From Siphonodentalium dalli (lineage: Eukaryota > Mollusca > Scaphopoda > Gadilida > Siphonodentaliidae): a stretch of DNA of 64,000 nt. Under the pieces are notes generated by a model. It worked only from the letters and a program-made list of their open reading frames with translations. It made no database searches and had not been told where the DNA came from. Location of the stretch: contig CP136065.1 of NCBI GenBank assembly GCA_032622095.1, positions 204,486,618 to 204,550,617 of the forward strand. Reading direction: 5' to 3'. Shown piece after piece: positions 36,359-63,475 of this stretch. The number at the start of each line of letters is the position of its first letter. Position 1 is the stretch's first letter. The position numbers and the translations under genes were made by a program.

Positions 36359-36377
36359 ATAAGAACAGATAATACAC
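36359..36377 (-). ncRNA. U2 snRNA fragment (nt 31-49) at 3' end of LINE copy 1
   Basis: The minus strand reads GTGTATTATCTGTTCTTAT, which is U2 from nt 31 with one change in the branch-site recognition motif (GTATTA for GTAGTA). It directly follows the A-rich tail of LINE copy 1, as expected for insertion at this U2 position. The rest of U2 is lost. Confidence 0.75.
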
Positions 36378-36796
36378 TTTCTTTTTTTTTATAAAAAGTT
36401 TATTCAGATAATACGAAATAATACAGGTTTTACAAAAGATAACGATGACAGAAATTCAAATACAGAGTAATATGGTGAAATAACGAAAGAAATGGAAAGC
36501 TTGCTAACTGCCAGCACCGTACATGCCCCCGCTCCGATTAAATACGGACGAGTCTGCGATATCACAAGTTTGGAGCGAGGGCTAAAGAACAAAATGAGTT
36601 GGGGGGGGGGATAATCCTTACCCACCCAACTCCCCCACGAATATTACTACAAAAATACAATACAGAGTTACCCATCCCACGTCCCAGAGACATTAAGTGC
36701 CCTGCGACGCAAGAGGGATAGCTCCACAGAGATTGTCTAAATATAAGCGTGTCAGTAGAGAAGTCGGACTTGTCCTTCTTAAAGGTACATGACTTA

Positions 36797-39700
36797 TTCT
36801 TATCGGAATGTAAATTCCACTTTGTCGTTCGAAATGCGACAGATATCAGTCGTTACCAGCCAGTACCTGTCGAATTCCGAACTGTGGAGGCGCTCATGAT
36901 CAGTGAGAATACGAATACGTAAATAATCAATAAGTTTTTGTGAATGAGTAGGGCCTTTGTGAAATTTGGCCTTGTTACGAAAATACCAAATGGTGCTAAT
37001 CGCTTCTGTCAGAAGAACGAGAATAGTGGCTTTATGATGCCGTTCCAGATCTGAGGGTAGTTGTAAAAAACGAACTGTTTTGGCGAGAGGTTTAAGCACT
37101 GTCTTGGGTGATAAATTATTGGCCCACTGAAATATAAGTCGCCATAAAGACTGAACTTTGTCACAAATACAGAATAAATGTTCATGAGATTCATCTTCTT
37201 TGCGACAAAGGGGACATTCTTTAAATCGTAAATTTTTAAATGATTGAGTTGATTGACTGGCAAAATGTCATGCGCCAGTTTCCATATATCTCTCCTCGCG
37301 ACTGGGCCAATGAAAGGATTATGTAAATTGCTCCAATTCGTACCAAACTGAATAAGGGGATATTTGTTAATTACAATAGGGGGCTTAACAATCACACTTA
37401 GAAAATCTAAGTAAAATTGTTTCGTGGTAAAACCATCAAAATTAAAGTCGGGGCGGATTTTTAAATATTTTCTAAGGGCTGCCATTACCTTAGTACAAAA
37501 TGGAGGTGGTTGTTCTTAACAATGGGGAATTAAATTGGAGCCAAATTCAGGCTTAAAACGAACTAGCGATAAACTGATCCAATACGCGACAAAGCAACCC
37601 CATCAGATATTGGGGAATTTCATGAATCGCTGCAGATGTTGCATGTAAAATGCGTCTAGTTTGGACGGAATATGAGAAAGCCCGGTCCCCCCCCGCAAGC
37701 AAACTGAGGCGGGACAGGGGTTCCTGCCTATTCTCCCAAATAAATTTATACATATTTGAATGGAAGGAACATAGATATGCAGCAGACATAGGAATAACAA
37801 AACAGTAATACCATATTTTAGACAGGGCATATGTATTAACAAGGACGGTGCGGAAGAAGGGGGTCAGTTTACGATCAAATGAATTTTGGAGTACACCAGA
37901 AAATTTAGAAAGAAGATTGTGAAAATGACCATCCAGTGTAATATTGCTTCCAGACTGGATTCCAAGAAGTTTTTGATGAGGGACCCAGCTTAAGCCATGT
38001 GGCTTGTCAGTGCGATCCCTCCAAGAGCCTAAAAATATACCGGCTGGTTTGTTCAGATTTAATTTAGCTCCGGATGCTTTACCAAAAAAGGTGCAATTTG
38101 ACAATATATGTTCAATGGAACAGTCATCAGTGACAATAGTGGTGACGTCATGCGCATACGCAGCGAGCTTTATCAGTTCAGTGTTCCACTGAACCGACAA
38201 ACCTACGATCTGCGCATCCGAACGGAATTTTATTAAAAGGGGCTCTAAACAAAGGACGTACAAAAGCGGGGATATACTACAACCTTGGCGTAGTGATCGT
38301 GTGACGGGGGAAAAAGGTCGGAAATAAACTGATTTACAATAACAGACGATGTGATGTTGTTGTAAAAAAGTCTAATCCAGGAAATAAATTTGGGGCCGAA
38401 CCCATATGCCGAAAGGGCACGAAAAAGATAAATGTGATCTACTCTATCGAAGGCTTTAGCCTGATCAAGGGAAATAAGGGCGCACCTAATATTTTTGTGA
38501 TTGACGTAATCAATGAGATTCCGCAATAGGTGGGCATTGTCCAAAATTGACCTTCCGGGAACGCCGCAACTTTGGTGAGAATGCACTAAAGTGCCAATGA
38601 CGTCCCGGAGGCGGTTTGTGAAAATTTTTCGAAAGAATTTTATAGTCATAATTCAGTAAACTAATGGGTTGATAATTTGAAACGTGTTCGGGGTGCTGGG
38701 GGTCTTTCAAAAGCAAAACAATTAGGGACTGTCGCTGCGAAGCTGACAGTTGACCTGAAATAAAGCAATTATTGTATAAATTTTGTAGTGTGGGCGCGAT
38801 GTAGTCAAGGAATGTAAAATAAAATTCCTGGCCCAACCCATCACTACCGGGAGACTTATTATTCTTCATTTGCGATACCGCAGTTTTAATTTCATCTATG
38901 GATATAGGGACTTCACATAAAGTTTGGTCAGAGGATGATAATTGGGGCAAGTTAGTTAAAAATTCTGAACAAGCAGAATTATCAATGGGCTCAGCAGAGA
39001 AAAGATGAGAATAAAATTCCCTAAATTGAGTTAAAATGTCACGAGAATCTGTGTAGGTATGATCATCTACAGTAAGTGATTTAATCGTTTTACTGGAACC
39101 ATGATGATTCTCCATCCGATGGAAGTGCGGGGAAGTGGACTCCTGAGAATCCAATTCCCGCGCACGAGATCGGATGAAGGACCCGTGTTCCAGCTCCAAA
39201 TATAAATCGTGAAGTTGCCTGCGCAAAGCTGCAATTTGTTCAGAGTAATTACCGGGATTGAGTTTTTCCGCTGAGCATAGATTAAATTATTGTCTTTCAA
39301 GACTGCGTATCGTAGATTTATGTGAAAAAGAAAGCTGTTTACTATGTGAAGTGATAAAGGACTTCACCTGCCCCTTGACCCCCTCCCAACATTCGGACGT
39401 GACGGCAGAAGCGGTCACGCCCGACGTGAGAGGAGACCAAAAGGAGACAAAGTCCTTCTGGAAAGTGCCATCGCGTAAAGTTTTAGCATTTGCTTTCCAG
39501 TAACCGCGTCCGAAAGATTGACAATTAAATTTCGTTATGCGAAACGAAACTGCATCATGATCCGATAAACAGCCTACTATCTGTTTGAATGAAGAAACAA
39601 GATAATAAGGACTCGGAAACATAGAACCGGTCGATCCGAGAAGCACTACCTCCCCAAGTCCAGGTATACTGTGTTGCTGTGGGTTCAAGATGACAAAATA

Positions 39701-40208
39701 TATCTTTCAGATGATAATTAGTGCGAATTGTAGCCCATTTCCGGGACATGGGGAGGACCCGGTCACGACCAATCCGATCGAGCGATACGTCATCAACAAA
39801 ATTAAAATCGCCCCCGACTATGTCGGACGCACAGAGACCAAGTTGAGGCACCACCCGATCGAAAAAGTCACGACGAGGCCCCCCGCTGTCGTTGGGACCA
39901 TAAACATTAATTATCCGAAGTTGTTGATCATCAAAAGTTATGTCAAGAACGACCATGCGTCCATCTGTGTCAAAAAACTGCTTAGTAACTTCAATATTTA
40001 AATGAGGAGATATTAGGATAGCAGCACCGCGGGCAGTGTTGGTACCATATGAATAAAAACCTTTCATGTCAAGAGTAGCATTTAAAGATAACGCATCTAG
40101 TTGGCCTAAAATATGCGTTTCTTGCAAAAATATTTTCAACATGCGCTGTTTTTTTGTACTGCCCAGTCCATTGCAGTTAAGGGACGCTATGTGTAAATTC
40201 GCCATCAT
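36797..40208 (-). pseudogene. LINE ORF2 copy 1 (endonuclease-reverse transcriptase), inactivated
   Basis: Begins MMANLHIASLNCNGLGS at 40208. Endonuclease motifs are seen in order: FLQETH, YGPNDSGGPRRDFFDR, GGDFNFVDD and RIDRFYVSES. A 30-nt in-frame deletion just before FLQETH removes residues present in copy C. The reverse transcriptase follows (38649-37553): GVPGRSILDNAHLLRNLID, LDQAKAFDRVDH, then the active-site motif as AYAHDV, where the first catalytic Asp of YADD is replaced by His. The C-terminal region has a Cys-rich segment near 37210. It is broken by several frameshifts (39680, 39250, 38640, 38250, 37540, 37090). It would make the priming cut and cDNA for insertion if intact. Confidence 0.85.
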
Positions 40209-40951
40209 GCTAGTAATTTAAGGGAAAGGATACCACAGCAGCGAAACTAAATAAACAAATAAAAATAATAAAGAGCGTTTGGTGAACGCGGACACCAACT
40301 CGGTCGACCGATGAACCGCGACGTACCACTGCTCATCAGCCGACAAAGAAGGCCCCCGCGCTAACCAAAACAAACTGACAGAAGAGTGCAGGGTCACCGA
40401 GTGCTGTACACTCGGATGACCCAATGCAAATAAAGACGGAAAATGAAGAAGGTGCGGATGGCATAGCGACAAACGCGATCGATCAGAAAACAGTCTAAAA
40501 CGGCCGCAATCTGGTCGACCGCACTCGTCGACACACCACCCACACACAATAGAGATTAAAGTTAACAAAGAGACAACCACGCCGGTTAGTCAGCGAACAG
40601 AGGATTACCATTGTACGATAACCGCCCGGAAGTAGACGCACTGTCAATGCAGGGTCACCGAGTGCGATAATACACTCTGGTGACCAAGCACCAAAGAGAC
40701 GAAATAAAATAACATTGAGTGGACAACACAGCGACATACCCAAACGAGCAGAAAACAGCCTAAATCGGCCGTAATCTGATCGACCTGGCACGTCGATACG
40801 CCGTCCACCCAGAACAATAGAAAATAACCAAGACACTTCGCCAAAACACTGGCGAATTAGAGAATCATCAGGGACGGTCCAAGGTCGTGGTGGGGGTGGG
40901 TGTAGAGGTGAGAACGTCCTTAGAAACAAAGTCTTAAGTGGTTGTACAGTC
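40209..40951 (-). repeat. LINE inter-ORF region with two ~260-bp units
   Basis: The segment CAGGGTCACCGAGTGC with its downstream block (CGACAAACGCGATCGATCAG, CCGTAATCTGATCGACC) occurs twice, near 40388 and 40650. The same arrangement occurs in copy 2 (43080, 43336) and copy C (60358, 60632), so it is a family feature rather than a recent duplication. It is GC-richer than the flanks. Confidence 0.75.
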
Positions 40952-42400
40952 ATAATTTAGGTTCCTGGAAGCACAGTCAGCGTCTGAAGTGACTCCCTCC
41001 TCGTCCTGCAGGTTGCTAATGTCTGTAACGTTCTTCTCGTAAATCGCTGAATCATCGGACGATGATGAGGCGGATCTCTTCAGGGGGTTACGTGTCCATG
41101 GATGGAAATAAAGACGCACTGGCGGAAACTCCATCATCGGAGACCAGGAGGGCATCCTGTGTCGCGGTAGATAAATCTACCTGACCAGGGCCGACCTGGC
41201 TGGCCTCCCGGGAGGGAGGGTGCGCATCAACAGGGTGCAAGGCACCCTGCTCGGAATCGATGGATTCCGCGACTGCCCCCAGTGTCGCGGAGGAAGGCTC
41301 CTGAGGGGGAGGCTTATCCCCCTGTTTCGCAGCAGAGTCCTCTGCTGGAGTGACAGGGGTCGCTCCCAACTTACTAACAGGGGTGGTGTCCCCCTGCTGC
41401 TGGTCGGCTATTGATGCCGCCAGCTCATCCAGTGTCGCAGTGGAGATGGGCTCCACTGGAGGGACTGAGGGGTAGGCTTATCCCCCTGTTTCGCAGCAGA
41501 GTCCTCTGCTGGAGTGACAGGGGTCGCTCCCAACTTACTAACAGGGGTGGTGTCCCCCTGCTGCTGGTCGGCTGGAGATGCCGCTAGCACCTTCAGTGTC
41601 GCAGTGGAGATGGACTCCACTGGAGGGACTGAAGGGGAAGACTTATCCCCCTGTTTCGCAACAGGGGTGGCTTCCGGTGCAAGAAGAACAAACTGGTCGT
41701 CAGACAGATGTAGCACTTCCCGACTGTCCGCAGTTTCCTCAGAAAACTTGTTACCTCCCAGCGCCGCAGCATAGGAGCCCCTCGGTGGGGGGTGTCGACG
41801 ATTTCCGGAAATCAAATCCTTTTCCTTCATGCGCTGCTCCACCCTCCGTGGGCACAGATCCCAGGTCCGGGTGTGCCCACTCCCCGGCAGGCGAAGCATA
41901 AAGGCGGTCTACCCTTGATAACAACCGGAATAAATTGTCCATTCGCCGTGTCGATTGAATAAGGCATGGAATCAATACGGTTGCAATTGACTGTCATGGT
42001 GACTAACTTAGTACCGTTAGCCACGCTACCTCCTCCTATGTACGAAATGTCATCCCGGATAGAATGGATTTCCCCGTAGTTTCCAAGTACACGTGAATAA
42101 ACGTCCGAACGGATGAAATATGGAACCCATAGTAATTTCACGACGATTTCTTTGGTGAAAAACGGTTGGAATTGCATTCCGGTCCCAGCATCCTGGAAAT
42201 GAAGAACACGAATCATCTGATAAGTTTCCATCTGTTGAATGTGGTCGAAAGTCATGTACCACGTCGTGGGTCTTGACAATCGAAATAAAGCGTCGACCAC
42301 ACTCAGGTCGAAATATTACTTCAGGAGATCACCAATTTTCTCTGTCGTCAGCCGGAATAGTCCTAGCAGCAAGAAAATCGTCATACAACCCGTCAGCCAT
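40952..42400 (-). pseudogene. LINE ORF1 copy 1, frameshifted
   Basis: ATG at 42400 in the shared context GGGACGCAGCTATGGCTGA (MADGLYDDFLAART). The N-terminal domain (42300-41940, with RLSRPTTWYMTFDH), the knuckle segment PPLCFACRGVGTPGPGI (near 41900, where the His is replaced after a frame slip), then a long Pro/Ser/Thr tail. In the tail a ~166-bp segment is tandemly duplicated (starts near 41310 and 41476). Frame breaks lie near 41890, 41460 and 41120. Copy 2 has only one unit of the duplicated part. Confidence 0.8.
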
Positions 42401-42486
42401 AGCTGCGTCCCTGACTGGCGGGAAAAACTAGATCAATTAGCGAAAGTAGGTCACTTAATCAATCACGTCAAAAATCACTTTGATCA

Positions 42487-42508
42487 AGCCAAAAGGCCGA
42501 GAAGCGAT
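42487..42508 (-). ncRNA. U2 snRNA 5' end (nt 1-22), LINE copy 1 junction
   Basis: The minus strand reads ATCGCTTCTCGGCCTTTTGG followed by CT, identical to the conserved U2 5' end, then LINE 5'UTR (TGATCAAAGTGATTTTTG). With 36359-36377 it brackets LINE copy 1. Confidence 0.85.
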
Positions 42509-42678
42509 GCCAATTTTTCGCGAAAAAAAATCGGGCCATTCAGCAGGAACCGTCGAGAAAATGGTTTTAATAAAAGGTGTGTCGTCATCAAATGGCGAAA
42601 TTCCGGTGTTATGCATGAAGCATGTGTTTGGATTTGGTTACAATTTAGAATAAACACAAGAATTTCGTCATGTGTATA
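42509..42678 (-). promoter_or_regulatory. U2 upstream region (spacer class 2), truncated
   Basis: Matches 45064-45280 and 55584-55800. The conserved block CGTCGAGAAAATGGTTT is at 42551-42567, 43-59 bp before the U2 start, the position of the PSE in animal snRNA genes. The region ends near 42672, where it is fused to an ORF2 fragment of copy 2. Confidence 0.7.
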
Positions 42679-42679
42679 T

Positions 42680-42910
42680 GGCCTTAGTAACTTCATTGTT
42701 TAAATGAGGAGATATTAGGATAGCAGCACCGCGGGCAGTGTTGGTACCATATGAATAAAAACCTTTCATGTCAAGAGTAGCATTTAAAGATAACGCATCT
42801 AATTGGCCTAAAATATGCGTTTCTTGCAAAAATATTTTCAACATGCGCTGTTTTTTTGTACTGCCCAGTCCATTGCAGTTAAGGGACGCTATGTGTAAAT
42901 TCGCCATCAT
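42680..42910 (-). pseudogene. LINE ORF2 N-terminal fragment, copy 2
   Basis: Begins MMANLHIASLNCNGLGS and continues to the segment AAILISPHLNNEV of the endonuclease, then is cut. It is nearly identical to 40208-39980 of copy 1, including the deletion before FLQETH. No active-site block after QETH remains. Confidence 0.8.
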
Positions 42911-43737
42911 GCTAGTAATTTAAGGGAAAGGATACCACAGCAACAGCAACAGCAGCGAAACTAAATAAACAAATCCAAATAATAAAGAGCGTCGACCGAT
43001 GAACCGCGGCGTACCGCTGCACATCAGCCGACAAAGAAGGCCCCCGCGCTAACCAAAACAAACTGACAGAAGAGAGCAGGGTCACCGAGTGCTGCACACT
43101 CGGATGACCCAATACAAATAGAGACGGAAAACCAAGAAAGTGCGGATAGCATTGCGACAAACGCGATCGATCAGAAAACAGTCTAAAACGGCCGTAATCT
43201 GGTCGACCGCACTCGTCGACACACCACCCACACACAATGGAGATTAAAGTAAACAAAGAGACAGCGCGACACGATTCTTCGGTGTACGATAACCGCCCGG
43301 CGAAGTCGACGCGCTGTCAACAATGCATAAGAGTGCAGGGTCACCGAGTGCGATAATACACTCTGGTGACCAAGCACTAAAGAGACAAAATAAAATAACG
43401 TTGAGCGGACAACACAGCGACATACCCGATCGAGCAGAAAACAGCCTAAATCGGCCGTAATCTGATCGACCTGGCACGTCGATACGCTGTCCACCCAGAA
43501 CAATAGAAAATAAAATAACTTTGCCAAAACACTGGCGAATCGAAGGGAAATCAGGGACGGTCCGTGGTCGGGGTGGGGGTGGTTTGAGAATAAATAACGT
43601 CCAGGTACACAGTTCCAAGAATAGTTGTAATAACATTGAGTGAATCACACCTCCGACATCTCCGACAGCACCGAATCATGGTCTGAAGGACCACCCTCCT
43701 CATCCGGACCAGCATTCACATCTGCCAATGTCTTCTT

Positions 43738-44961
43738 TTAGGTTTCGGTGGACGAAATCGACGAAGACGAAGCGGATCTCTTCAGGGGGTTCCGCGTCCC
43801 CGACGTGTCCATGGTAGAAAACAGTGACGGACTGGTGGAAAATTCAAAATCAGATGCCTGGAAGGCAACCTGCGTCGCGGTAGACAAACCTACCTGACCA
43901 GGGCCGACCTGGCTGGCCTCCCGGGAGGGAGGGTGCGCATCAACAGGGTGCGAGGCACCCTGCTCGGAATCGAGGGATTCCGCACAAGCCCCCAGTGTCG
44001 CGGAGGAAGGCTCCTCCGGAGGGACTGAGGGGGGAGGCTTATCCCCCTGTTTCACAGCAGAGTCCTCTGCTGGAGTGACAGGGGTCGCTCCCAACGTACT
44101 AACAGGGGTGATGTCCCCCTGCTGCTGGTCAGCCGAAGATGCCGCACTCGCATTCAGTGTCGCAGTGGAGATGGACTCCACTGGAGGGACTGAAAGGGAA
44201 GACTTATCCCCCTGTTTTGCAACAGGGGTTGCTTCCTTCGAAAACACAACTAACGAGTTTTCCCCTATCTGCATCGATGGTCCACTGAGCGCCTCAGCAT
44301 AACTGGTCCTCGGTGGGGGCTGCCGTCTGGTACCGGAAACGAGATTCCGCTCCTTCATACGCTGCTCCACTCTCCGGGGGCACAGCTCCCACTTCCTGGT
44401 GTGGCCCACCTCCCTGCACGCAAAACACATCGGACGCCTCCCACTGATGATAATCGGTATGAACTGTCCCCCGGAGGTGCTGATGGAATAAGGCATCGAA
44501 TCCAGTATGTTACAGTTTACGGTCATATGGACTACTTTGGTGCCTGTCGCCACACTGGTACCGCCGACATAGGCCCGATCATCTCTGATGGCGTGTATCA
44601 CACCGTAGTTCCCCAGCACCCTCTCGTAGACTTCTTTCTTCAAAAAGAACGGAACCCAAAGTAACTTTACGATGATCTCCCTTTGAAAGAATGGCGTGAA
44701 CCTCTTGCCCACACCGGCCTCGGTAAAATCCAAAGATCTGGGCAACTGGTAAGAATCCATGCAATTGATGTGGTCGAAAGTTAAATACCATGTATCCGGT
44801 CGGGAAAGACGAAAAAGAGCGTCTACGCGTGTCAGGTCAAAATCCTCCTTCAACAAATCGCCCATCTTTTCCACTGTCATCTTAAAGCGGCTTGGCCCAT
44901 CCAACTTGATCTCCAAAGTCCTGGCCGCCAAAATTTCCTGGTAGAGGCCCCCGTCAGCCAT
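43738..44961 (-). CDS. LINE ORF1 protein, copy 2, intact (407 aa)
   Basis: Start chosen at 44961 (MADGGLYQEILAARTLEIKL) in the context GACGTCGCCATGGC, which is conserved in all copies. The frame stays open upstream to 45234, but those codons are U2 promoter, U2 5' end and LINE 5'UTR. The N-terminal ~190 residues form the shared ORF1 domain (ALFRLSRPDTWYLTFDHI, PFFQREIIVKLLWVPFF). A CCHC-type knuckle follows, CFACREVGHTRKWELCP (C-x2-C-x4-H-x6-C), about residues 225-241. The tail is Pro/Ser/Thr-rich with ATPVxxAEDS and QGDKPPP motifs and a short basic end. Such proteins bind LINE RNA and act as chaperones in the RNP. It is the only undamaged ORF1 here. Confidence 0.8.
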   Translation of the reverse strand: MADGGLYQEILAARTLEIKLDGPSRFKMTVEKMGDLLKEDFDLTRVDALFRLSRPDTWYLTFDHINCMDSYQLPRSLDFTEAGVGKRFTPFFQREIIVKLLWVPFFLKKEVYERVLGNYGVIHAIRDDRAYVGGTSVATGTKVVHMTVNCNILDSMPYSISTSGGQFIPIIISGRRPMCFACREVGHTRKWELCPRRVEQRMKERNLVSGTRRQPPPRTSYAEALSGPSMQIGENSLVVFSKEATPVAKQGDKSSLSVPPVESISTATLNASAASSADQQQGDITPVSTLGATPVTPAEDSAVKQGDKPPPSVPPEEPSSATLGACAESLDSEQGASHPVDAHPPSREASQVGPGQVGLSTATQVAFQASDFEFSTSPSLFSTMDTSGTRNPLKRSASSSSISSTET

Positions 44962-45042
44962 GGCGACGTCCCTGGCAAACGGTACAAAAACACAATAACC
45001 AATTAAGAGAACTAGGTCACGTGACAAATATCGACGATCTTT

Positions 45043-45063
45043 GCCAAAAGGTCGAGAAGCGAT
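45043..45063 (-). ncRNA. U2 snRNA 5' end (nt 1-21), LINE copy 2 junction
   Basis: The minus strand reads ATCGCTTCTCGACCTTTTGG plus C, with one change from the conserved U2 sequence (A for G at nt 12). It is followed by LINE 5'UTR AAAGATCGTCGATATTTG. Confidence 0.85.
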
Positions 45064-45645
45064 GCCGATTTTTCGCGAAAAAAAATCGGGCCATTCAGCA
45101 GGAACCGTCGAGAAAATGGTTTTAATAAAAGGTGTGTCGTCATCAAATCCCAGGAATCGACATGAATCCTGAAAAAGAAAGAAATATGCATGAGAAGCAA
45201 AATTGGCGAAATTTCGGTGTTTTGCATGAAACATGTGTTCTGATTTTGTTACAATTTAGAATAAACGCAAGAATTTCGTCATTTTTTCGTGACTCCATTT
45301 GAGACGTACGACGTACGTTCTTCTGACTCTAATTAATACTGTACTGTTGATCCATTATAAGCTCATCATCGAGTAGTGCAAACCAAAATGTAACGAAAAA
45401 TAGCGAAAGATACTGAATGTCGCGAAATCTGAACCTGACTTTTTTGCAATAGTTTTCTGTGCATTGTGAAATTACGTAAGGGTTATTTATAATAAACGTT
45501 GTTCGTTGTAACATAAATGCAATGCAAACGCTGTGTGGTATCTGTTCTTATCAGCATGACATCTGAACATTCCAAATGAAACTTTGTTCCATGTCAGAAG
45601 GTACAGAGAGGTGGGGAGTAGGACTAATTTTAGATTATTTAAGAA
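45064..45645 (-). promoter_or_regulatory. U2 intergenic spacer class 2, 582 bp, with PSE-like block
   Basis: Lies between the 3' part of one U2 (45646-45701) and the start of the next (45063). The same spacer at 55584-56177 is 594 bp long, so this is the native tandem spacer. The conserved block CGTCGAGAAAATGGTTT is at 45106-45122 (-43 to -59). Just downstream of U2 the spacer has AATCTAAAATTAGT (near 45625-45640), placed where the snRNA 3' box is expected. A TACGACGTACGT palindrome lies near 45306. Confidence 0.75.
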
Positions 45646-45701
45646 TGGGCCGATACCGGAGGTACTGCAATACCGCGCTAACCCGTGGCGAGGTTAGAGC
45701 A
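45646..45701 (-). ncRNA. U2 snRNA 3' end fragment (~56 nt)
   Basis: The minus strand reads TGCTCTAACCTCGCCACGGG then TTAGCGCGGTATTGCAGTAC and CTCCGGTATCGGCCC. It matches the 3' half of the complete 3' part at 56178-56330 and the conserved GGTATTGCAGTACCTCC stem-loop of U2. The preceding part of U2 is replaced by a LINE ORF1 fragment. Confidence 0.85.
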
Positions 45702-46010: not shown

Positions 46011-46084
46011 TTTTTTATTCTGACATTAATATGGATTTTATTACCTGCTTTGGCCATACAAAAATTTTGTTTTATCCTACCGCA

Positions 46085-46500: not shown

Positions 46501-46504
46501 ATAA

Positions 46505-47819: not shown

Positions 47820-47821
47820 GG

Positions 47822-50258: not shown

Positions 50259-50263
50259 TCTCT

Positions 50264-52395: not shown

Positions 52396-54093
52396 TGCAG
52401 CACCGAACCAAGCACTCGGAAGGCACAGAGAAATAACACTGAACGGACAGCACAGCGACAAACTCGACCGAGCAGAGAAAAGCCTAATACGGCTGTAATC
52501 TGATCGATCGGGTCCGGCACTACACTGTCCGCACAGAACAAAGAAAAATAAAAACACAAAGAATAAGCCTCCACCAAAACACTGGTGGATGAGTGCAAGT
52601 CCAGGGACGTTCCGCGTTCGGGTTGGGGGTCGATGAAGAATAGAGAATGTCCGTATAAGAAAAGTCAGTGTTCGTTGTGAATCCATTGAGTTACACCATC
52701 GAGTCGCACTCCGACGTCGCGTACTCCTCGTCGGTCCTGTTGTTGAGGTCGGCGTAGTTTCGCTTGTAGTCGGTGAGGTTGTCGGACGACTCAGAAACAG
52801 AGCGCTTCAGCAAATTCACGGGAGGTCTCGTGTCCATGTCCGAAAACATACTTGGAGAATCCGGAAAGAATGGAATCAGGAGGCCTTCCTGTGTCGCGGT
52901 GGATAAATCCACCAGAGGGACAGAGAGTTCCCCTGAATCTGCCTTCTGCTTCTCAGCAGTGGTGTCCACAGAAGGGAGCGCACAAACAGGAGCGATGTCG
53001 CCATCGCCCTGCTCCCCGGCATCGAGGGATGCCAGGATGGAATCGATTACCTCCCTCGCCATCATGGAGGAAGGCTCCTCCAGAGGGGACGAGGGCGGAG
53101 GCTTATCCCCCTGATTCGCACCAGGGGCGCTCCTAGCGACAACGACTGAGGCTGCAGCTCCGGCGGGGGGTCAGGAGGTGTCTCGCCATATGAAGCCAAT
53201 AACTCCCCTGCCATCACGGAGGTGACCACCTCCGGAGGGGACGAGGGGGGAGGCTTACTCCCTTGCCCCACAGTAGAGTCCTCTACTGCAGGAACAAGGG
53301 GTGCTCCCAGTGACGCCACAGAAACTCTTGAACCGGCAGCAGCGGCGTACGTCTTCGGTGGGTTCCTCAGGACCCCCGAGGGGTTCTCCCGTTCCTCTGC
53401 TGCACGGCGCTCGGCCGCCACACGGTTCGGGCACGCCGGTGAAGAGCGATTGTGGCCTAAGCCACGACAAGAAAAGCACATCCTCGGCCTCCCCGGGATA
53501 ACCACGGGACAAAATCCCCACTTCCCGTAATTTAGAAAGAAGGGGATCAGGTCGAGACTTCTCGGGGACACGGACATCTCCACCTGGATGTCCCCCGTAC
53601 AGTATCTGTGGCCGTCAATAACGTTGGTAGAATCCTTCACAGAAAAAATCTTCCCATAGGGGCGCAGTGCCCCTAACACAAATTCCCTGTTTACATGGTA
53701 CGGCACCCACATGATCTTCACCATCGTCTTCCTCTCCCAAAACGGCTGGAAACTTATGGTAAACTTCATAGTGCCACCGTCAACAGGCATGACACAAAGT
53801 CCAGCCTGATAAAAGTCAAAGTCCTCCTGCGCCGAAAAAAACAAGTACCATACACCGAACCGCTCCATCCTGTAGAGTGCCTGGATTTTCGACAGGTCCA
53901 GTATATCTGTCAACGCGGCCATCAAGATCTGCCCAGTCACCAGCCCGCGACTCTCTCCCCTAACATGCATCTGCAGTGTGCGCGCAACACGATCCTCCAT
54001 AATATCGGCCGCCATGGCTCCGTCCCTGGCGGACAAACAAAAACAAAGGGCCAATCAAAGAAGTAGGTCACCTTAATTAAATCAACGATCTTT
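51465..54093 (-). mobile_element. U2-targeted LINE copy A, internally deleted and 3'-truncated
   Basis: Minus strand: U2 nt 1-21 (54114-54094), 5'UTR, ORF1 (54015-52691), inter-ORF region to about 52400, then a direct jump into the 3' half of ORF2 (52395-51460). The endonuclease and first half of the reverse transcriptase (about 2.5 kb) are deleted. The 3' end, tail and rest of U2 are missing. Its ORF1 is more similar to 1-673 and 12278-13467 than to copies 1 and 2, so at least two subfamilies exist. Confidence 0.8.
52691..54015 (-). pseudogene. LINE ORF1 copy A, one frameshift
   Basis: ATG at 54015 (MAADIMEDRVARTLQMHVRG). The N-terminal domain contains ALYRMERFGVWYLFF and FQPFWERKTMVKIMWVPYH. 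The knuckle MCFSCRGLGHNRSSPACP (C-x2-C-x4-H-x6-C) lies at about 53480-53430. A Pro/Ser-rich tail runs to 53062. After a frameshift near 53120, the acidic end continues to the stop at 52691 (EEYATSECDSMV). It would be close to full length if not shifted. Confidence 0.8.
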
Positions 54094-54114
54094 GCCAAAC
54101 GGCCGAGAAGCGAT
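54094..54114 (-). ncRNA. U2 snRNA 5' end (nt 1-21), LINE copy A junction
   Basis: The minus strand reads ATCGCTTCTCGGCCGTTTGG plus C, with one change (G for T at nt 15), followed by AAAGATCGTTGATTT of the LINE 5'UTR. Confidence 0.85.
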
Positions 54115-54789
54115 ACCAATTTAGGTTTTCAATTCCAGGTCACTGTTCAAATCCACGACAAGAAATGGTTTGAATCACCATCAACCAAGTTTCAAAACGA
54201 AACCACCAACAACAGACATCCAAGTAAAACAAAAAAAACTTCAAAAGTCCAAACCGGTCGAATACCGAAATTCTGGACGAAACGACAATCAGTCTCAAGT
54301 TTACTTTCGATTTCCATTTCTCAATAAATGTATCTTTTTCCCCACCAATTTTGGACCACTGTTCCAAACGTAGAGTGAACGATCATCAGGACGTATTCAG
54401 ACGTACACTATATTGACTAATCACATCTACATCTACGAAGTACAGCGACGCGTGCGTCTAAAAATAACGCATAACGGCTAATGGCGGACAAATAGTACTA
54501 TTAGAATGTGGCCGCACGGTGGTTAATATTTCAGTTTCGCCAGTGTAGATTGCTTTATGCAGTACCTAAGTAACGAAAACTTCGTTTTGCAATCAAAGAA
54601 ATCACTGGGTCTTGAAATTTTCACCGACCGAGCGGGGGTAAATTAAACGCGCTTTATTATTACCATATAAGTACAATAACAACAATAAAACTCTTTATAT
54701 TTGCGTTTTGTTAGCTATATGTTTTCCCATAACACCACTAAAAAGATGTATCGCAAGACATGATTGCAGTTCAGTGACGAATTAGACAA
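54115..54789 (-). promoter_or_regulatory. U2 upstream spacer class 1 with PSE-like block
   Basis: Homologous to 62166-63475 (which carries a ~735-bp insertion). The conserved block CGACAAGAAATGGTTT is at 54156-54171, 42-57 bp before the U2 start. This is the same core and distance as in class 2 although the rest of the sequence differs. The far end, near 54789, abuts the truncated ORF1 of copy B. Confidence 0.75.
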
Positions 54790-55490
54790 TTAAAGTCCTC
54801 GTTAACAGCAGATTCGTATGTACGAATAGGTCTGCTAAGCACACCAGCCGCCTGGAACTCCGACTGCTCCGCTCGCCGCTGGTGAACACGCTTGGGGCAA
54901 TCGGGATCCCGGCTCATGTGCCCAACGTTTTTACATGCGAAGCACAAGGGCGGCCTGCCCGGAATGAGCAGCGGGCAAATCTGGCCCCTCCCCATGTCAA
55001 TATAGGCTGGCATGCGCTGTAATGCACTGTAACTCAACTTCATCACGGTCTCCTTCTTCCCGTTAGCGTAATGTCGGCCCTCCACCGCATCATATTTGTC
55101 AACAAGAGTCATGACTGGTCCAAATCTTTTAAAAAATTTTAAGATGGATTCGGTGGACATATGGTACGGAACCCAAAAAATTTGAATGGTGACTGTCTGC
55201 TCAAAGAAGGGCTTCATAGTAAACACAACCCCAGAGTCGAATGTATGAGAAGAACTACCAATTGCAAATTGATCTTTATACTGTTCGAAGTACTGATCAT
55301 GAGTAAATGTTACGTACCTGATGTCCGCCCTCTGCAATCGATAAAACGCCGAAATAGTAGTGACATCCACAATTAAAGAACGGAAATAGGCAACCATCTG
55401 TTTTGTAGTTAGCATTCTTGATCCCGGCCCAGATACACGAATCTCCAAAGTCCGGGCCGCCCGATCTTCATTTACATCAATGTCCGCCAT
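54771..55490 (-). pseudogene. LINE ORF1 copy B, C-terminally truncated
   Basis: ATG at 55490 (MADIDVNEDRAARTLEIRVS). The N-terminal domain contains ISAFYRLQRADIRYVTFTH. The knuckle is CFACKNVGHMSRDPDCP (C-x2-C-x4-H-x6-C). The frame is open for about 239 codons, the last few of which come from spacer DNA before a chance stop. It is a divergent subfamily member compared with copies 1, 2, A and C. Confidence 0.75.
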
Positions 55491-55559
55491 GGCGACGTCC
55501 CTGGCGGACCAAACAAACAGCATCAGCAATCAAAATAAATCAAAACTAGCCCTTTGAGT
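54790..55559 (-). mobile_element. U2-targeted LINE copy B, truncated after ORF1 knuckle
   Basis: Minus strand: U2 nt 1-24 (55583-55560), 5'UTR, ORF1 N-terminal two thirds, then direct fusion to the class 1 spacer of the next U2 unit. The ORF1 tail, ORF2, LINE 3' end and the rest of the U2 gene are all missing, as expected from unequal recombination or deletion inside the array. Confidence 0.75.
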
Positions 55560-55583
55560 TTAGCCAAAAGGCCGAGAAGCGAT
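55560..55583 (-). ncRNA. U2 snRNA 5' end (nt 1-24), LINE copy B junction
   Basis: The minus strand reads ATCGCTTCTCGGCCTTTTGG then CTAA, identical to conserved U2 to nt 24. This is the longest retained U2 5' piece among the junctions. LINE 5'UTR (ACTCAAAGGGCTAG) follows. Confidence 0.85.
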
Positions 55584-56177
55584 GCTGATTTTTCGCGAAA
55601 AAAAATCGGGCCATTCAGCAGGAACCGTCGAGAAAATGGTTTTAATAAAAGGTGTGTCGTCATCAAATGCCAGGAATCGACATGAATCCTGAAAAAGAAA
55701 GAAATATGCATGAGAAGCGAAAATGGCGAAATTCCGGTGTTTTGCATGAAGCATGTGTTTGGATTTTGTTACAATTTAGAATAAACACAAGAATTTCGTC
55801 ATTTTTTTCGTGACTCCATTTGAGACGTACGACGTACGTTCTTCTGACTCTATTTAATACTGTACTGTTGATCCATTATAAGCTCATCGAGTCGTGCAAA
55901 CCAAAATGTTGCGAAAGATGCTGAATGTCGCGAAAATCTTAACCTTACTTTTTTGCAATAGTTTTCTTTGTATTTGTGAAAATACGTTAAGGGTGATTTA
56001 GAATAAACGTTGTTCATTGTAATATGAATGCAACGTAAACGTTCTTTATCAACAATGTGTGGTATCTGTTCTTATCAGCATGACATCTAAACATTCCAAA
56101 TGAAACTCTGTTCCATGTCAGAAGGTACAGAGAGGTTGGAGGTGGGGGGGGAACTAATTTTAGATTATTTAAGAATG
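55584..56177 (-). promoter_or_regulatory. U2 intergenic spacer class 2, 594 bp, with PSE-like block and 3' box candidate
   Basis: An intact spacer between a U2 3' end (56178) and the next U2 start (55583). The conserved block CGTCGAGAAAATGGTTT is at 55626-55642 (-43 to -59). AATCTAAAATTAGT occurs about 8-22 nt after the U2 3' end (56155-56170), the position of the snRNA 3' box that directs Integrator cleavage. The sequence is similar along its length to 45064-45645. Confidence 0.8.
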
Positions 56178-56330
56178 GGCCGATCCCGGAGGTACTGCAA
56201 TACCGGGCCAACCCGTGGCGAGGTTAGAGCAAGCTCTAGGCCACTCGCCTACAGTCAAAAATCAGTTTAATATCGAAGTCCCCATTTGGGGACGTATCAG
56301 ATATTAAGCTGATAAGAACAGATACTACAC
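56178..56330 (-). ncRNA. RNU2: U2 snRNA nt 31 to 3' end (153 nt), downstream of LINE copy C
   Basis: The minus strand starts GTGTAGTATCTGTTCTTATC, including the branch-site recognition GTAGTA. It continues with the stem-loop II region (AATATCTGATACG), the Sm site AACTGATTTTTG, and the 3' stem-loop GGTATTGCAGTACCTCC, ending near 56178. With the 5' piece at 62147-62165 it accounts for a U2 of about 183 nt, normal for animals. The gene is split by a 5.8-kb LINE after nucleotide ~19 and before nucleotide 31, so it should not give U2 RNA. Confidence 0.92.
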
Positions 56331-56693
56331 TTTTTTTTTTAATAAAAAGTTTATTAAGGAATAATAATGAATCAAGGTTTCGGTACAAATGTAAAGAATA
56401 TAACAACATAGCAAAATGGAAATAATGTACGGTATATAAAGAAAAGGAATAGAAAGCCGACAACCTGCCAGCACCGCACCGACCCCCGCTCCGAATAAAA
56501 ACAGACGAATCTGCGGTATCACAGGGCTGGAGCGAGGATCATACGAAACAAAAAGAGTTGGGCAATATTAAGTACCCTCCCAACTCCCCACAAAATATGA
56601 AAGAAAGAAAAACAGAGTTATCAATCCTGCATCCCGGAGACGCAAAGGCCTCCACAATGCAGGAAGGATAACTCCACTGAAAAGTAAACAGAG

Positions 56694-59600
56694 TTATCTT
56701 CTAAAGGTGCACTCTAGAATGCGAATTCCACTTTGCCGTTCGAAATCCGACAGATAATCAGTTGTTACCAACCAATACCAGTCGAACTCCGAACGGTGGA
56801 GGCGCGAAAAGTCAGTCAGAATACGAATTTTGAGGCGATTTAAATAATCCACAATGAGTTTGTTAGAATGAGTCGTACCTTTGTGGAACTTCGCTTCATT
56901 GCGAAAGTACCAAATTGTGCTGATGGCTTCAGTCAGAAGCACAAGAATCGTGGCTTTGTGATGCCTGTCGAGATTCGGAGGTAGTTGCAAAAAGCGAATA
57001 ATTGTGGATAGGGGTCTAATCTCTCAATGGGGCAATAAATTATTGGCCCAATGAAAAATTAGCCTCCATAATGGTTGAACTTGTGGACAAAAACAAAATA
57101 AGTGATCATGAGATTCGACGTCTTTCCGACAAAGGGGGCATAATTTGTATCGCTGCATTTTCAAATAGTGTAAAAGTTGATTAACAGGTAAGATATCGTG
57201 AGCTAACTTCCAAATGTCTCGCCAGGCAATGGGCCCGATAAAGGGATTATGTAAATTACTCCAAGTTACGTTAAACTGGATAGATGGGTATCTGTTAATT
57301 ACAATAGGAGACTTAACGATTTTACTTAGAAAGTCCAAGTAAAATTGTTTTGTAGTAAAACTGTCGAAATTAAAATCGGCGCGAATTATCAGATAATTCC
57401 TAAGGCCTGCCAACACCTTAGTATAAAATGGGGGTGGTTGTTCAGAACAATGAGGAATCAAATTGGTGCGTAATTCAGGTTTAAAACGAATCAGTGATAA
57501 ACCTGTCCAATAAGTCACGAAACAACCCCACCGGATATTGGGGAATTTCATGTATCTTTGAAGATGTTGCATATAAAATGCATCTAATTTGGAAGGAATA
57601 TGAGAAAGCCCGGTCCCTCCCCGCAGTTTGCTTTCGCGCAAACCGTGAGGCGGGACAGGGGTTCCTGCTTATTCTCCCAAATGAATTTGTACATCTTGGA
57701 GTTAAAGGAACATAAATAGGCAGCAGATAGGGGAATAATAGAACAATAGTACCATAATTTGGATAAAGCATATGTATTGACAAGGGCGGTGCGGGAGAAG
57801 GGGGTCAATTTGCGATCAAACGAATTTTGCAATACGCCCGAAAATTTGGAAAGGAGATTGTGAAAGTGACCATCGAGACTAACATCATTGCCATATTGAA
57901 TACCGAGAAGTTTTTGATGAGACCCATTTTAAGCCATGCGGCATGTCTGTGCGGTCTCTCCAAGAGCCTAAAAATATACCGGCTGATTTGTTCAAATTTA
58001 ATTTAGCGCCGGATGCTTTACCAAAAAGTGTGCAATTAGATAGTATGTGTTCAATAGAGTTGTCATTAATGACTATCGTAGTGACGTCATCCGCATACGC
58101 AGCTAGCTTTATCGGTTCAGCGGAACACTGAACAGACAAACCCAAAATCTGCGTATCCGAACGGAATTTAATCAAAAGGGGCTCTAAACAGAGGACGTAC
58201 AGAAGCGGGGATATACTGCAGCCTTGGCGTACTGATCGAGTAACGGGAAAAGGGTCAGAAATAAACTGATTTACAATAACAGACGAAGTGATGCTATTGT
58301 AAAAAAGTTTAATCCAGGAAATAAAATTGGGACTGAACCCGTATGCAGAAAGGGCACGAAAAAGATAAGTGTGGTCGACGCGATCAAAAGCTTTAGCTTG
58401 GTCAAGTGAAATGAGGGCACACCGAATATTTTTGTTATTGACGTAATCAATGAGATTACGTAATAGATGTGCATTATCTAAAATTGACCTTCCGGGAACG
58501 CCGCAAGTTTGGTCAGAATGCACTAAAGTGCCAATGACGTCCCGGAGGCGGTTTGTGAAAATTTTCGAAAAAGAATTTTGTAGTCATAATTCAATAAACT
58601 AATGGGCCGATAATTAGATACGAGTTCAGGGTGCTGGGGATCTTTAAGAAGCAATACAATGAGGGACTGTCGCTGCGAAGCAGACAGTTGACCTGAAAGG
58701 AAACAATTGTTATATAACTTTTGTAGGATGGGTGCGATTTTTAGCAAGGAATGTAAAATAAAATTCCTTGCCTAACCCATCACTACCAGGGGATTTATTA
58801 TTTTTCATTTGGGAGACAGCCATTTTGATTTCATCGAGCGATATAGGGGAATCACATAAGGATTTATCAGAGGGCGATATTTGAGGTAAATCAGTTAGAA
58901 ATTCCGAACAAGCGGAGTCATCAATGGCTTCAGCAGTAAAAAGGACTGAATAAAATTCCCGAAATTTGGTTAAAATATCATGAGAATCAGTGTAAGTATT
59001 GTCATTTACGGTAACCGACGAAATGGTTTTCCTGGAACCACGATGATGCTCCATCCGATGGAAGTGCGAAGAAGTGGATTCCTGAGAATCCAACTCCCGC
59101 GCACGACATCGGATGAAGGACCCGCATTCCAGTTCCAAATATAAGTCGTGGAGCTTTTGGCGCAATGCCGCAATCTGCTCAGAATAATTACCCGGATTAA
59201 ATTTTTCCAAAGTGCATAAGTTAAAATACTGCTGTTCCATATTACGAATAACTGATTTATGGGAATGGGAAAGCCGTTTACTGTGAGTAATTATGGACTT
59301 TATCTTCCCTTTGATCCCCTCCCACCAATCGGACGTGACGGCATCAGCGGCCAGGCCCGACGTGAGAGAGGACCAAAAGGGGAGAAAGTCCTCCTGAAAA
59401 GTTTCATCTTGAAAAGTTTTCACATCAGCTTTCCAATATCCACGCCCGAAAGATTGACAGTTGAACTTTTTGATAGTAAAAGATATGGCGTCATGATCTG
59501 AGATACAGCCGACTATCTGTTGGAATGAATGAATAGATGATAACAGGGACTCCGAGACATAGAACCGATCGAGTCGAGAAGCGCTATGTCCCCGAGTCCA

Positions 59601-60176
59601 TGTATACTGCGTTGCTGTGGGTTCATAATGACGAAAGACATCTTTAAGTTTAAATTTGTTATGTAAATCAGCCCATTTCCGGGACACAGGAAGGACCCGG
59701 TCATGACCAATTCGATCGAGCGATACGTCATCCACGAAGTTAAAATCTCCCCTGATAATAATCGGGCGAAGACAAACCAAGTGAGGGATAACTCGATCGA
59801 AAAAGTCACGACGAGGTCCACCACTATCATTCGGGGCATAAATATTAATGAGGCGAAGTAATTGGTGATCAATTGAAATATCTAATACGACCATGCGACC
59901 GTAAGTATCATAAAATAATTTGTCAATTTGAACATCTAAATGAGGCGAAATTAAAATAGCAGCACCACGTGATGTGTTTGTACCATAAGAATAAAAACCC
60001 TTCATGTCTAGAGTAGCATTAAGTGAATCGGCTTCCAACTTGCCCAAGATGTGAGTTTCTTGTAAAAAGATAATATCGATGGAATTAAAACAGATAAGCA
60101 TTTTCAAAAGGCGCTGTTTTTGAGAACTGCCCAGGCCATTGCAGTTAAGGGAAGCTATTTTTAAATTCGCCATCAT
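56694..60176 (-). pseudogene. LINE ORF2 copy C (APE endonuclease + reverse transcriptase), frameshifted
   Basis: Starts MMANLKIASLNCNGLGS at 60176. The first 488 codons are open and carry the APE-type endonuclease: N in SLNCNGLG, IDIIFLQETH, YAPNDSGGPRRDFF, RGDFNFVDD, RLDRFYVSES, SDHDAI. A frame change near 58740 leads into the reverse transcriptase: VSNYRPISLLNYDYK, GVPGRSILDNAHLL, LDQAKAFDRVDH, VRQGCSISPLLY, AYADDVTTI. The C-terminal region has CPLCRKDVESHDHLFCFCP, a CCHC-type motif common in Tx1/L1-like LINEs. Later frame breaks lie near 58520, 57860, 57640 and 57000. It would nick the U2 gene and reverse-transcribe the LINE RNA. Confidence 0.88.
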
Positions 60177-60901
60177 TGATGGTTGATATCAAACAAAAAG
60201 AAACCACAGCAACGCCCACGAAAATGAAAAAAGAAGCAAGGGAGAAAATTGAGGCAACGCGGGCGCAACCTTTGCCGGTCCGTGAGCGCTGGCGTACCGA
60301 TGCACACGAACCAACAAAGAAGGCCCCCGCACCAACCACAACAAACACCGATAAAAGTGCAGGGTCGCAGAGTGCGCTAAACTCTGACGACCCAAAGTTA
60401 AAATAAACGAAAAGCGCGGACAGCACATCGACAAACTCGATCGTGCAGAATGCAGTCCAAATGGGCCACAATCTGATCGACCAAGCAAGTCGACACACCG
60501 CCCACAAACAATAGAAAATATGAAGAACAATGAGACAGTGCGACAACAATGCCGGTCAGAAAACGAACAGCGGATTACCGGTGAACGAAAACCGCCCGGC
60601 AAAGTCGCCACACCGTCAACAAAGTATAAAAGTGCAGGGTCACCGAGTGCGACCAAGCACTGAGAGACCAAAATGAAATAACACTGAGCGGACGGCACAG
60701 CGACAAACTCGATCGTACAACAAAACACAGGAGAAATCAGAGACGGTCCAAGTTCGGGGTGGGGGTCGCAGAAGAAGAATAATAGTCCGTTGAAACAAGT
60801 ACAAAATTATCATGAATAATCTTAACAGTCTCAGGAAGGCGATGGCGGCAATGACGAGCCCACAGACGAACACTCTTCATCCGGGGCCATCTTAACACGA
60901 G
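60177..60901 (-). repeat. LINE inter-ORF region, copy C, two related units
   Basis: GTGCAGGGTC plus GAGTGCG occurs near 60358 and 60632, each followed by a CGACAAACTCGATCGT block. Same architecture as in copies 1 and 2. Confidence 0.7.
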
Positions 60902-62067
60902 TCAAGCACTGCTGGTATTCAATGTCCGTGAATCTAACTCCTCCTCATCGTGTTCCCTCTTCCTAGATGTCCGGGGTTCCGTCATCTCGGATTCAAACAA
61001 TTCCTCCTGTGTGTCGGCAGGGTCGGGTGACCCTGCCGCAGGGACAGGAGGAGACGGACCAGTAAGGGACTGGTCAACAGACGCCAGGAGCTCCCTCGCC
61101 GCCGCGGTGGATAACTCCACCGGAGGGGGAGGCTTATCCCCCTGTTTCGCAGCGGAGTCCTCCGCTGGAGTGACAGGGGTCGCTCCCAACGAGCCTACGG
61201 GAGACCGGGTCCCCCGGCGGGGGGGTCCTCGGCGGGGGGGGTCCCGCTCAGACAAAGACACCTCGATCTCCTGTCCCGTCCCTGTTGACACCACAACCAG
61301 AGGGGGAACAGGAGGGCGTAGCTCACTCCCCTGCCCCCCCCAACAGAGTCCTCTCCCGGAGGGTCAGGGGTCTTACCCAAAATCTCCTTCTGAATCATAG
61401 AAACCGGTGTCACAACTCGAGTGTATGTTCGTGGAGGGGCCCTCCTGGTCCCAGAAGGGTTCTCTCGTTCTTCAGCCTCCTTCCGGCGGCGTGCCATCCG
61501 TGTGGGGCATGCTGCATCCTTACTGTGATGCCCTACGGCTTTACAGGAGAAGCACAGGGGCGGCCGCCCCGGAATAAGAACGGGGCAGATGCCCCTCCCC
61601 ACATCCAAAAACGGAGGAATTTGTTGGAACTTATTGAACGAGCAGGTCATAGTGATGATCCGCTCGCTGGTAGCAAACACGGAATTTTCCACCTTACAAA
61701 CCGCGTCACGAAGGGCATGAACGAGCACCTCGTTTGACACAAAGAATGGCACCCACAGCACCCGCATCTGGAACTTCCGCTCGAAGAATGCTTTAAAGGA
61801 AAGATCAATTCCAAAGTGTGTAGAGTGAATGGGCGCGAACGAAAACTGCTGTAAAAAGGAAACATAAGCATCTTCACTGCTCAACGTGACGAACCAGATG
61901 TCTGGCCTCTCCAGTCTGAAAATGGCATCGATCTTGTCAATGTCAAAACCCGCATCCTTTAGCAACACAGCGAAAACGTCCGGTTTAAGCAGCCGGAAAT
62001 TCGGCCCAAAGGCCCGCACCTGAACGGTGCGCCCCGCCCGATCCTCGTTGACGTAGCTGCCGGCCAT
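60902..62067 (-). pseudogene. LINE ORF1 copy C, frameshift in a C-run
   Basis: ATG at 62067 (MAGSYVNEDRAGRTVQVRAF). The N-terminal domain has AIFRLERPDIWFVTLS and FFERKFQMRVLWVPFF. The knuckle is LCFSCKAVGHHSKDAACP (C-x2-C-x4-H-x6-C) near 61560-61510. The frame shifts at the cytosine run around 61333-61342. The tail then continues in another frame with SLGATPVTPAEDSAAKQGDK and a basic end (TSRKREHDEEELDSR) to 60902. Confidence 0.8.
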
Positions 62068-62146
62068 CCCTGACCGACAGCAACACAAAGGCAATTAAAC
62101 AAAAGTAGGTCACGTGGAGACTAACAAAAATCACTTTGAGCTTCGA

Positions 62147-62165
62147 CAAAAGGCCGAGAAGCGAT
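62147..62165 (-). ncRNA. RNU2: U2 snRNA 5' end (nt 1-19), LINE copy C junction
   Basis: The minus strand reads ATCGCTTCTCGGCCTTTTG, identical to conserved U2, then TCGAAGCTCAAAGTGATT of the LINE. Partner of the U2 3' part at 56178-56330. Confidence 0.88.
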
Positions 62166-63475
62166 ACCAATTTAGGTTTTCAATTCCAGGTCACTGTTCA
62201 AATCCACGACAAGAAATGGTTTGAATCACCATCAACCAAGTTTCAAAACGAAACCACCAACAACAGACATCCAAGTAAAACAAAAAAAACTTAAAAAGTC
62301 CAAACCGGTCGAATACCGAAATTCTGGACGAAACGACAATCAGTCGGAAGTTTACATTCGATTTCCATTTCTCAATAAATGTATATTTTTCCCAACCAAT
62401 TTTGGACCACTGTTCCAAACGTAGTGTGGACGATCGTCAGTACGTATTCAGACTACACTATTGACTAATCACACCTACATCTACGAAGTACAGCGACCGC
62501 GTGCATCCAAAAATAACAGTTAATGGCGGGAAAATAGTGCAATTCGAATGTGGTTGGACGGTGGTTAATATTTCAGTTTCGCCAGTGAAGATTGCTTTAT
62601 GCAGGGGGGGGGGGGGGGGGTAAATTATAGCGCTTTATTATTAGTAGAGTTTTTCAAAACTTTTTTCAAAACTCGACTTATGGTTTGGCGAGGGACGGTT
62701 GCCGGCCGGGTGGGCAGACCTAAAGAATGCCTTATAACTTTGACATTTGTGAACGGATTCAAAAAATGTGTGGTATGGCAGTTGTTCCCAATGACTATTT
62801 ACTGCCTGTAGAAAATGGGTCACTTCCGAACTTTTTTACAAGAGTTATCCATCTTAGATGGTTTTTAGTTAAGTTTTTCACCGATAGCGCGAAATATTGA
62901 CCAATTTCAACAATATTTGGTATATGAGACTCTTGCAACAATATCTCGGACGAGTTCGAAAACCAGGTTTGTCCGAATTTTTTTCGCGGAGTTATGGGTC
63001 TTAGTTTGTCTATTTTTTTAGCAATTTTATCACCGTTAGCGCGATAACTCAATGAAATATTAACCGATTTCAACAATATTTTGTATATGAGTCAATTGCA
63101 ACAATATCTCGGACGAGTTCGAAAACCTGGTTTGTCCGAATTTTTTTCCCGGAGTTATGGATCTTAGTTTGTGTATTTTAATCACAATTTTTTCACCGTT
63201 AGTGCGATAACTCATTGAAATATTAACGGATTCAATTGATATTTGGTATATAGGTCTATTGCAATAATATACCACCGTCCAACTTTTTTTCCCGGCGTTG
63301 TGCACCTTATTGGCAGAAGTTTGGTTTGACTGCCAAACAACTCGACAAAAGCATCTTAGATGCGTACCCCTTGTTACCATATAAGTATCTATATATTTGC
63401 GTTTTGTTAGCTATATGTTTTCCCATAACACCACTAAAAATATTTATCGCAAGACATTGCAGTTCAGATGACGAA
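62166..63475 (-). promoter_or_regulatory. U2 upstream spacer class 1, carrying a ~735-bp insertion
   Basis: 62166-62644 and 63378-63475 match 54115-54789. The conserved block CGACAAGAAATGGTTT is at 62207-62222 (-42 to -57). A G-run (62604-62620) replaces about 50 bp of the class 1 spacer. 62645-63377 is an insertion absent from the other copy. Confidence 0.75.
62645..63377. repeat. Insertion in U2 spacer built of ~165-bp tandem units
   Basis: CAACAATATCTCGGACGAGT and TTTTTCGCGGAGTTATGGGT-type segments recur, with starts near 62924 and 63088 and a decayed third unit. No terminal repeats are evident. It looks like a block of satellite moved into the spacer. Confidence 0.65.

Follow-up and report, generated by a model that had tools for sequence, protein, structure and literature searches.

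The genome assembly of the scaphopod mollusk Siphonodentalium dalli comprises 2.23 Gb in 9 contigs. The window analyzed here is a stretch of 64,000 nucleotides (nt) of this assembly (G000:C5:204486618-204550617), which the initial annotation had described as an array of U2 small nuclear RNA (snRNA) genes colonized by a Keno-like, U2-specific family of long interspersed nuclear elements (LINEs). All junctions named in that annotation are present: five U2 5′ ends (at 42508, 45063, 54114, 55583, and 62165), each joined to a LINE on the same (minus) strand; a sixth, decayed junction at about 13573, also on the minus strand; and two LINE 3′ tails joined to U2, ending at 36380 and 56333. As the reference for host U2, we used an intact copy from the functional-looking U2 array of this genome (22 identical copies among 30 excised loci), and this sequence matches the flanks of the LINEs (Table 1). 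An Rfam scan of the window returned a single U2 at 56170-56354, of which 56170-56333 is true U2. The annotated 5′ fusion after U2 nt ~19-24 is right, in that a U2-like leader carried by the LINE begins at nt 22. The annotated 3′ join to U2 is real, and its position, given as nt 31, is refined to poly(A)/AAAGTG (a slash marks a junction or nick throughout), which corresponds to host nt 29 and is ambiguous over nt 29-32 because of the A run there. Site-specific insertion in the orientation of U2 is supported, as is the coexistence of multiple subfamilies of open reading frames (ORFs) 1 and 2 within one locus.

Table 1. Features of the window, in descending order of position along the minus strand.
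Feature	Coordinates	Strand	Basis or domains
U2 5′ stub, alignable to nt 1-34 (host-like through nt 21, LINE leader thereafter)	62132..62165	-	
LINE A (K1a), complete insertion, ORFs broken	56334..62131	-	U2 on both sides
LINE A ORF1, frame-shifted; 98 nt between U2 start and start codon	60902..62067	-	
LINE A ORF2, frame-shifted: APE endonuclease, reverse transcriptase, zinc-binding C terminus	57024..60176	-	PF03372, PF00078, PF13966
Structured conserved portion of 3′ untranslated region	56445..56604	-	
U2 nt 29-192, 164/164 identical to host U2	56170..56333	-	
Spacer of second-class U2 unit	55584..56169	-	Comparison with five other units
U2 stub and LINE fragment with ORF1c, ends short at next spacer	54788..55583	-	
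Spacer of functional-array class, 93.7% identical to array unit	54115..54787	-	
U2 stub and K1b-type LINE with ORF1b and C-terminal part of ORF2	51460..54114	-	
U2 nt 131-192, 95% identical	45640..45701	-	
U2 stub and K1d LINE with ORF1d and start of ORF2, cut short	42674..45063	-	
LINE B U2 5′ stub, alignable to nt 1-34	42475..42508	-	
LINE B (K1d type), complete insertion, ORFs broken	36381..42474	-	U2 on both sides
U2 nt 29-~53, then 5′ end of second LINE type as in L036	36082..36380	-	
Sixth U2 stub, decayed, fused to LINE 5′ end	13547..13573	-	

The window is distinct from the functional-looking U2 array, which lies ~1.2 Mb away at C5:203.27-203.30 Mb in tandem units of 920 bp, and belongs to a graveyard of LINE-interrupted U2 units that spans ~1 Mb. 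All 14 degraded U2 copies on C5 (among 46 scored U2 matches in the genome) have a LINE immediately upstream; 12 of these LINEs end in poly(A)/nt 29, one has a K2-type tail (L052), and one is truncated (L041). The exact junction of the main family, A8+GTGTAGTATCTG, is found 13 times across the 2.23-Gb genome, always within C5:203.81-204.76 Mb, and the reversed pattern occurs 0 times, which argues against chance. The same junction pattern had 0 matches in a viral contig collection and 0 in a genome contig collection. In a genome search for U5, none of the 46 places listed falls within the LINE clusters.

Three ORF2 lineages, for which we coined the names K1, K2, and K3, are found at U2, and they use two sites 7 nt apart. 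The site of K1, the main family, is U2 nt 28/29, with poly(A)/nt 29 as the junction; the K2 and K3 types insert at nt 35/36 and leave poly(A)/nt 36 (to 37). The nt 36 site is exemplified by locus L036, where an insertion within the functional-looking array has flanks identical to the host and nt 36-53 in duplicate (18 bp, or 17 bp if one A belongs to the tail). Further examples are L041:70 and L049:1302, where a K2-like start comes after a K2 end; in L042, a K3-like start follows K1 within one U2. In the window, the U2 at 36380 was hit twice: only its nt 29-~53 precede the 5′ end of a second LINE type, and 36380-36082 is 84% identical over 300 nt to the L036 stretch. A further 5′ portion of the second LINE type lies at 32981-33236 (80% identity to the L036 stretch). 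At L036:7798-9700, an apparently recent ORF1-only element disrupts one unit of the functional-looking array; it looks nonautonomous because there is an ORF1 match and no ORF2 match.

One of the genome's histone H2B genes resembles those of animals, in agreement with the animal host that had been proposed, and the expected apurinic/apyrimidinic endonuclease (APE) type is borne out by an N-terminal PF03372 domain in ORF2. By Pfam, ORF2 encodes this endonuclease, a reverse transcriptase (RT), and a zinc-binding C-terminal part, and a zinc knuckle in ORF1 gives weak matches, under the Pfam cutoff, in some copies; this is the composition of L1/Tx1-type APE LINEs. The closest solved structures in the PDB are L1 ORF2p, with R2 a weaker match for the RT. 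The window elements are L1-like APE LINEs and not Utopia, because Utopia has a restriction-like endonuclease; in Phytophthora, its U2 flank begins with nt 39. The likeness to Utopia lies in the arrays themselves, since for Utopia, too, U2 arrays with several families, tandem insertions, and disrupted genes outnumbering intact ones are described in the relevant part of PMC4640811.

Are the elements Keno? This Tx1-clade family shares with them an APE endonuclease, an RT, and insertion into animal U2 genes, and it is listed from frogs, fish, lancelet, and hydra in PMC4640811. That part of the initial annotation stands. The published Keno 3′ flank, however, is TCTGTTCTTATCAG.. at “nt 37” in the relevant passage of PMC6136364, which is host nt 40 here (TCTG..), whereas the flank of K1 starts at host nt 29-32 and that of K2 and K3 at nt 36-37, that is, 3-11 nt upstream. 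The elements are set apart from Keno by site, and their annotation as a Keno-like family is not supported in that form; they also differ in having relatives in U1 and histone H4 genes (see below), so that a single U2-only family does not describe them. That they are Keno itself, with the site difference as variation within Keno, may be so, though we lean against it. A quick tree was built from 9 sequences of this genome and those 37 of 116 public matches with at least 600 amino acids (aa), 46 rows in all, with the Shimodaira-Hasegawa-like approximate likelihood ratio test (SH-aLRT) as its only support measure. It joins K1 and K3 (SH-aLRT 99) and groups K1, K2, and K3 with four unnamed proteins in a set that has 13 members (SH-aLRT 99). 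The named TX1-like protein P0104 was excluded from this tree (<600 aa).

In 300-nt steps, LINE A and LINE B are 47-65% identical in ORF1, 70-90% in ORF2, and 65-77% in the 3′ untranslated region (UTR), and there is no blastn match between their positions 75 and 785. ORF1 either was swapped or evolves very fast. By contrast, a 3′ UTR portion of ~160 nt is conserved across 16 sequences from U2-, U1-, and H4-type elements; its three helices comprise 22 pairs, which are 98.0% paired. Cells changed on both sides number 10, compared with 2.5 in shuffles (none of the 500 attains 10); pairs with double-sided change number 2, compared with 1.0 (31 of 500), and further pair types 10, compared with 10.0 (486 of 500). 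The covariation support is therefore moderate. We suggest that this portion is probably a recognition element for the RT.

A search of the genome with the endonuclease part of LINE A ORF2 gave at least 90 matches, of which 37 have at least 63% identity. Among the 90 matches listed, these 37 fall in two clusters and nowhere else: 29 at C5:203.79-204.67 Mb, the U2 graveyard, where some are pieces of one copy, and 8 at C4:20.62-20.92 Mb, 7 of which have an open frame of 1,173 aa. All 37 are on the minus strand; a copy on the plus strand at L043, whose U2 is also on the plus strand, is absent from the 90. The C4 cluster is an array of U1 snRNA genes with ~700-bp units. There, all three 3′ junctions that were read lie in U1 (L057, L062, and L068, the last from a family of ~37% identity), with poly(A)/GGCGGTGGCCCC, and in L058 and L075 the stub corresponds to U1 nt 1-41, which gives a 9-bp duplication, AAAAGGCGG.

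The U1 elements carry a trace of U2. All three of the U1 5′ junctions that were reached (L058, L074, and L075) have a U2-like leader after U1, covering overall U2 nt ~4-34; a fourth U1 stretch, L073, did not reach its junction. The leaders of L058 and L075 are mutually identical and match U2 nt 8-34 and, more weakly, to nt 48 (score 40, compared with maxima of 34 in 5,000 shuffles and 27 in 3,900 background windows), and that of L074 matches nt 4-23. The closest relatives of the window elements outside the U2 locus sit in the U1 array: over its 518-nt 3′ end, L057 shares 96.3-97.8% identity with the U2-inserted L048, L050, L051, and L055 and, over 246 nt, 98.4% with the U2-inserted L056, and the 3′ end of L062 is 80-89% identical to U2-inserted copies. 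These observations suggest that the U2-like leader is likely a fossil of a switch of target from U2 to U1. Because the 3′ ends of U1 and U2 elements are only about 2-4% apart, a U2/U1 switch appears to be recent, and switching probably took place more than once or in both directions.

To which DNA the leader belongs can be read from 18 K1 stubs, 6 in the window and 12 elsewhere in the genome. Mismatches to host U2 amount to 15/378 at nt 1-21 and 25/126 at nt 22-28 (Fisher P = 1.6e−7), with at least one nt 22-28 mismatch in every stub, and to 13/108 at nt 29-34 and 39/162 at nt 35-43. We therefore rejected the stub past nt 21 as target DNA, since its changes track LINE subfamilies. The same leader also stands behind two spacer classes (54114, array type, versus L049 and L052, the other class). 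The U2-like leader from nt 22 is LINE borne and inherited with the element.

More distant relatives (36-38% endonuclease identity) form tight clusters at C5:111.4-111.6, C9:143.8-144.2, and C8:156.6-156.7 Mb, and several of them lie in histone H4 genes. In L060 and L070 (C9), poly(A)/CAAAGGTGGTAAAGG opens onto H4 sequence that starts near codon 5, and the histone stem-loop follows. Among the C5 loci, L063 falls within an H4 gene, downstream of an element, L064 has an H4 promoter, 5′ UTR, and first codons joined to a LINE, and L059 consists of a LINE, 28 nt of H4, and a LINE; on C8, L069 has an L059-type 3′ end ahead of an apparent H2B start (read by eye). In L065, the target H4 runs to ..GGTGGTAAA and is followed by the 5′ UTR and first codons of another type of H4 gene and then by the LINE. 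Target duplication does not explain this foreign 5′ UTR; an RNA begun at the start site of the donor H4 gene would supply it. In L064, the donor-type 5′ UTR begins 29 nt downstream of the first nucleotide of its TATA box.

We consider it likely that these site-specific APE LINEs are transcribed from the promoters of their target genes, that a lineage switched from U2 to U1, and that the distant relatives in H4 behave likewise. If the elements instead had a promoter of their own, the host sequence at their 5′ ends would be mere flank or duplicated target, and most stubs, taken alone, are compatible with that. We find it unlikely, given the 5′ UTR of a different H4 gene in L065, the U2 sequence in U1 elements, and L038, where a further copy of U2, beginning at nt 1, stands between the target and a K2 LINE. 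In addition, LINE A leaves little room for a promoter in the 98 nt from the U2 start to ORF1.

Two other explanations are far less credible. Spread of a single insertion by tandem duplication of the U2 unit, so that the copies would be copied DNA and not repeated targeting, would fit the tandem units and some near-identical neighboring spacers (2 differences in 572 in L048), but it is very improbable because the two L048 units with near-identical spacers carry different LINE types, one subfamily junction occurs behind both spacer classes, different families use one site, and copies exist in U1. We regard it as scarcely credible that the short leader found in U1 elements reflects chance similarity or a chimeric assembly, because no shuffle or background window reaches the L058 score and because the leader is present at all three junctions, in the position at which U2-inserted K1 elements carry U2.

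Several points weigh against copying from target-gene promoters and a switch from U2 to U1. The score of L074, 32, is below the best of the 5,000 shuffles of the L058 leader, though above all 3,900 background windows, and the three U1 junctions represent two sequence types because the L058 and L075 leaders are identical. L038 and L065 each provide one junction, flanks were read for a minority of the 37 copies, and the idea of a shared site is based on three sites. In K3-like and some other relatives (L066, L067, and L072), the tails lie elsewhere than in U2, U1, or H4, so strict target specificity does not extend to the entire clade. In L071, no A run of at least 7 was seen, and L061 has two LINEs in succession with no Rfam match between them.

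Copying from target-gene promoters could proceed as follows. In vivo, the promoter of the target gene would make a chimeric RNA starting at U2 nt 1, as the fossil 5′ ends suggest, and because of this start the U2 5′ end would be copied with the element and could reanneal to U2. Judging from the junctions, the ORF2 protein would nick at C/AAA, which for K1 is the bottom strand of U2 between nt 28 and 29. The poly(A) tail would pair with the T run beside the nick, and target-primed reverse transcription would insert K1 in the orientation of U2; LINE reverse transcription starting from a T run is established. The end of the cDNA, with its host 5′ sequence, would then anneal to the cut target, a step proposed for R1 in the relevant part of PMC2718515, or would join after duplication. 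Where the new target is a different gene, the 5′ end of the old gene would be retained as a label. Across the putative nick, the top strand reads GATC/AAAGTG in U2, GATCC/AAAAGGCGG in U1, and GAGGC/AAAGGTGG in H4, and all three sites leave a bottom-strand T run for the poly(A) tail. With less assurance, but still as the better bet, we hypothesize that a LINE clade residing in highly expressed multicopy genes (U2, U1, and H4) and transcribed from host promoters switches targets via C/AAA(A)G as a bridge, with the old 5′ end as its label.

The units into which the LINEs inserted have their own history. Across U2 nt 29-192, the six units compared have 0, 0, 0, 1, 3, and 3 mismatches, and most of their spacers are ~3% divergent (L041, ~10%). 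Selection keeping the U2 3′ pieces conserved after insertion was rejected as a cause, because two units carry different LINEs despite near-identical spacers, and recent insertion into units with already diverged spacers suffices. The spacer of the second-class unit contains an inverted U2 fragment (nt ~28-79, ~81%), found in the window at 56053-56102 and 45533-45578 (plus strand) and also in L040, L048, L049, L051-L056, and others. L030 (C8:665064-668255) holds a U2 copy with a second-class 5′ flank, its 3′ end lost, within a short tandem repeat. Elsewhere in the window, at 15504-16123, is a ~165-bp tandem repeat in four overlapping copies (family D2).

Among known systems, R1 of the melanogaster group is similar in that an RNA with upstream target-gene sequence is proposed for it and upstream sequence is duplicated at some of its 5′ junctions (PMC2718515). 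Its target is 28S rRNA, and the relevant passages of that report describe no leader-marked change of target gene family. Dada-U1 and Dada-U6, according to the pertinent sections of PMC4640811 and PMC3706591, target U1 and U6 snRNA genes; they are DNA transposons and not LINEs. A literature search of openly licensed papers found no non-LTR (long terminal repeat) elements targeting U1 or histone genes. Both the change of target by a site-specific retrotransposon and the source of its transcription seem to be directly traced in these elements, by a U2 leader in U1-inserted copies and by a foreign histone 5′ UTR in a histone insertion.

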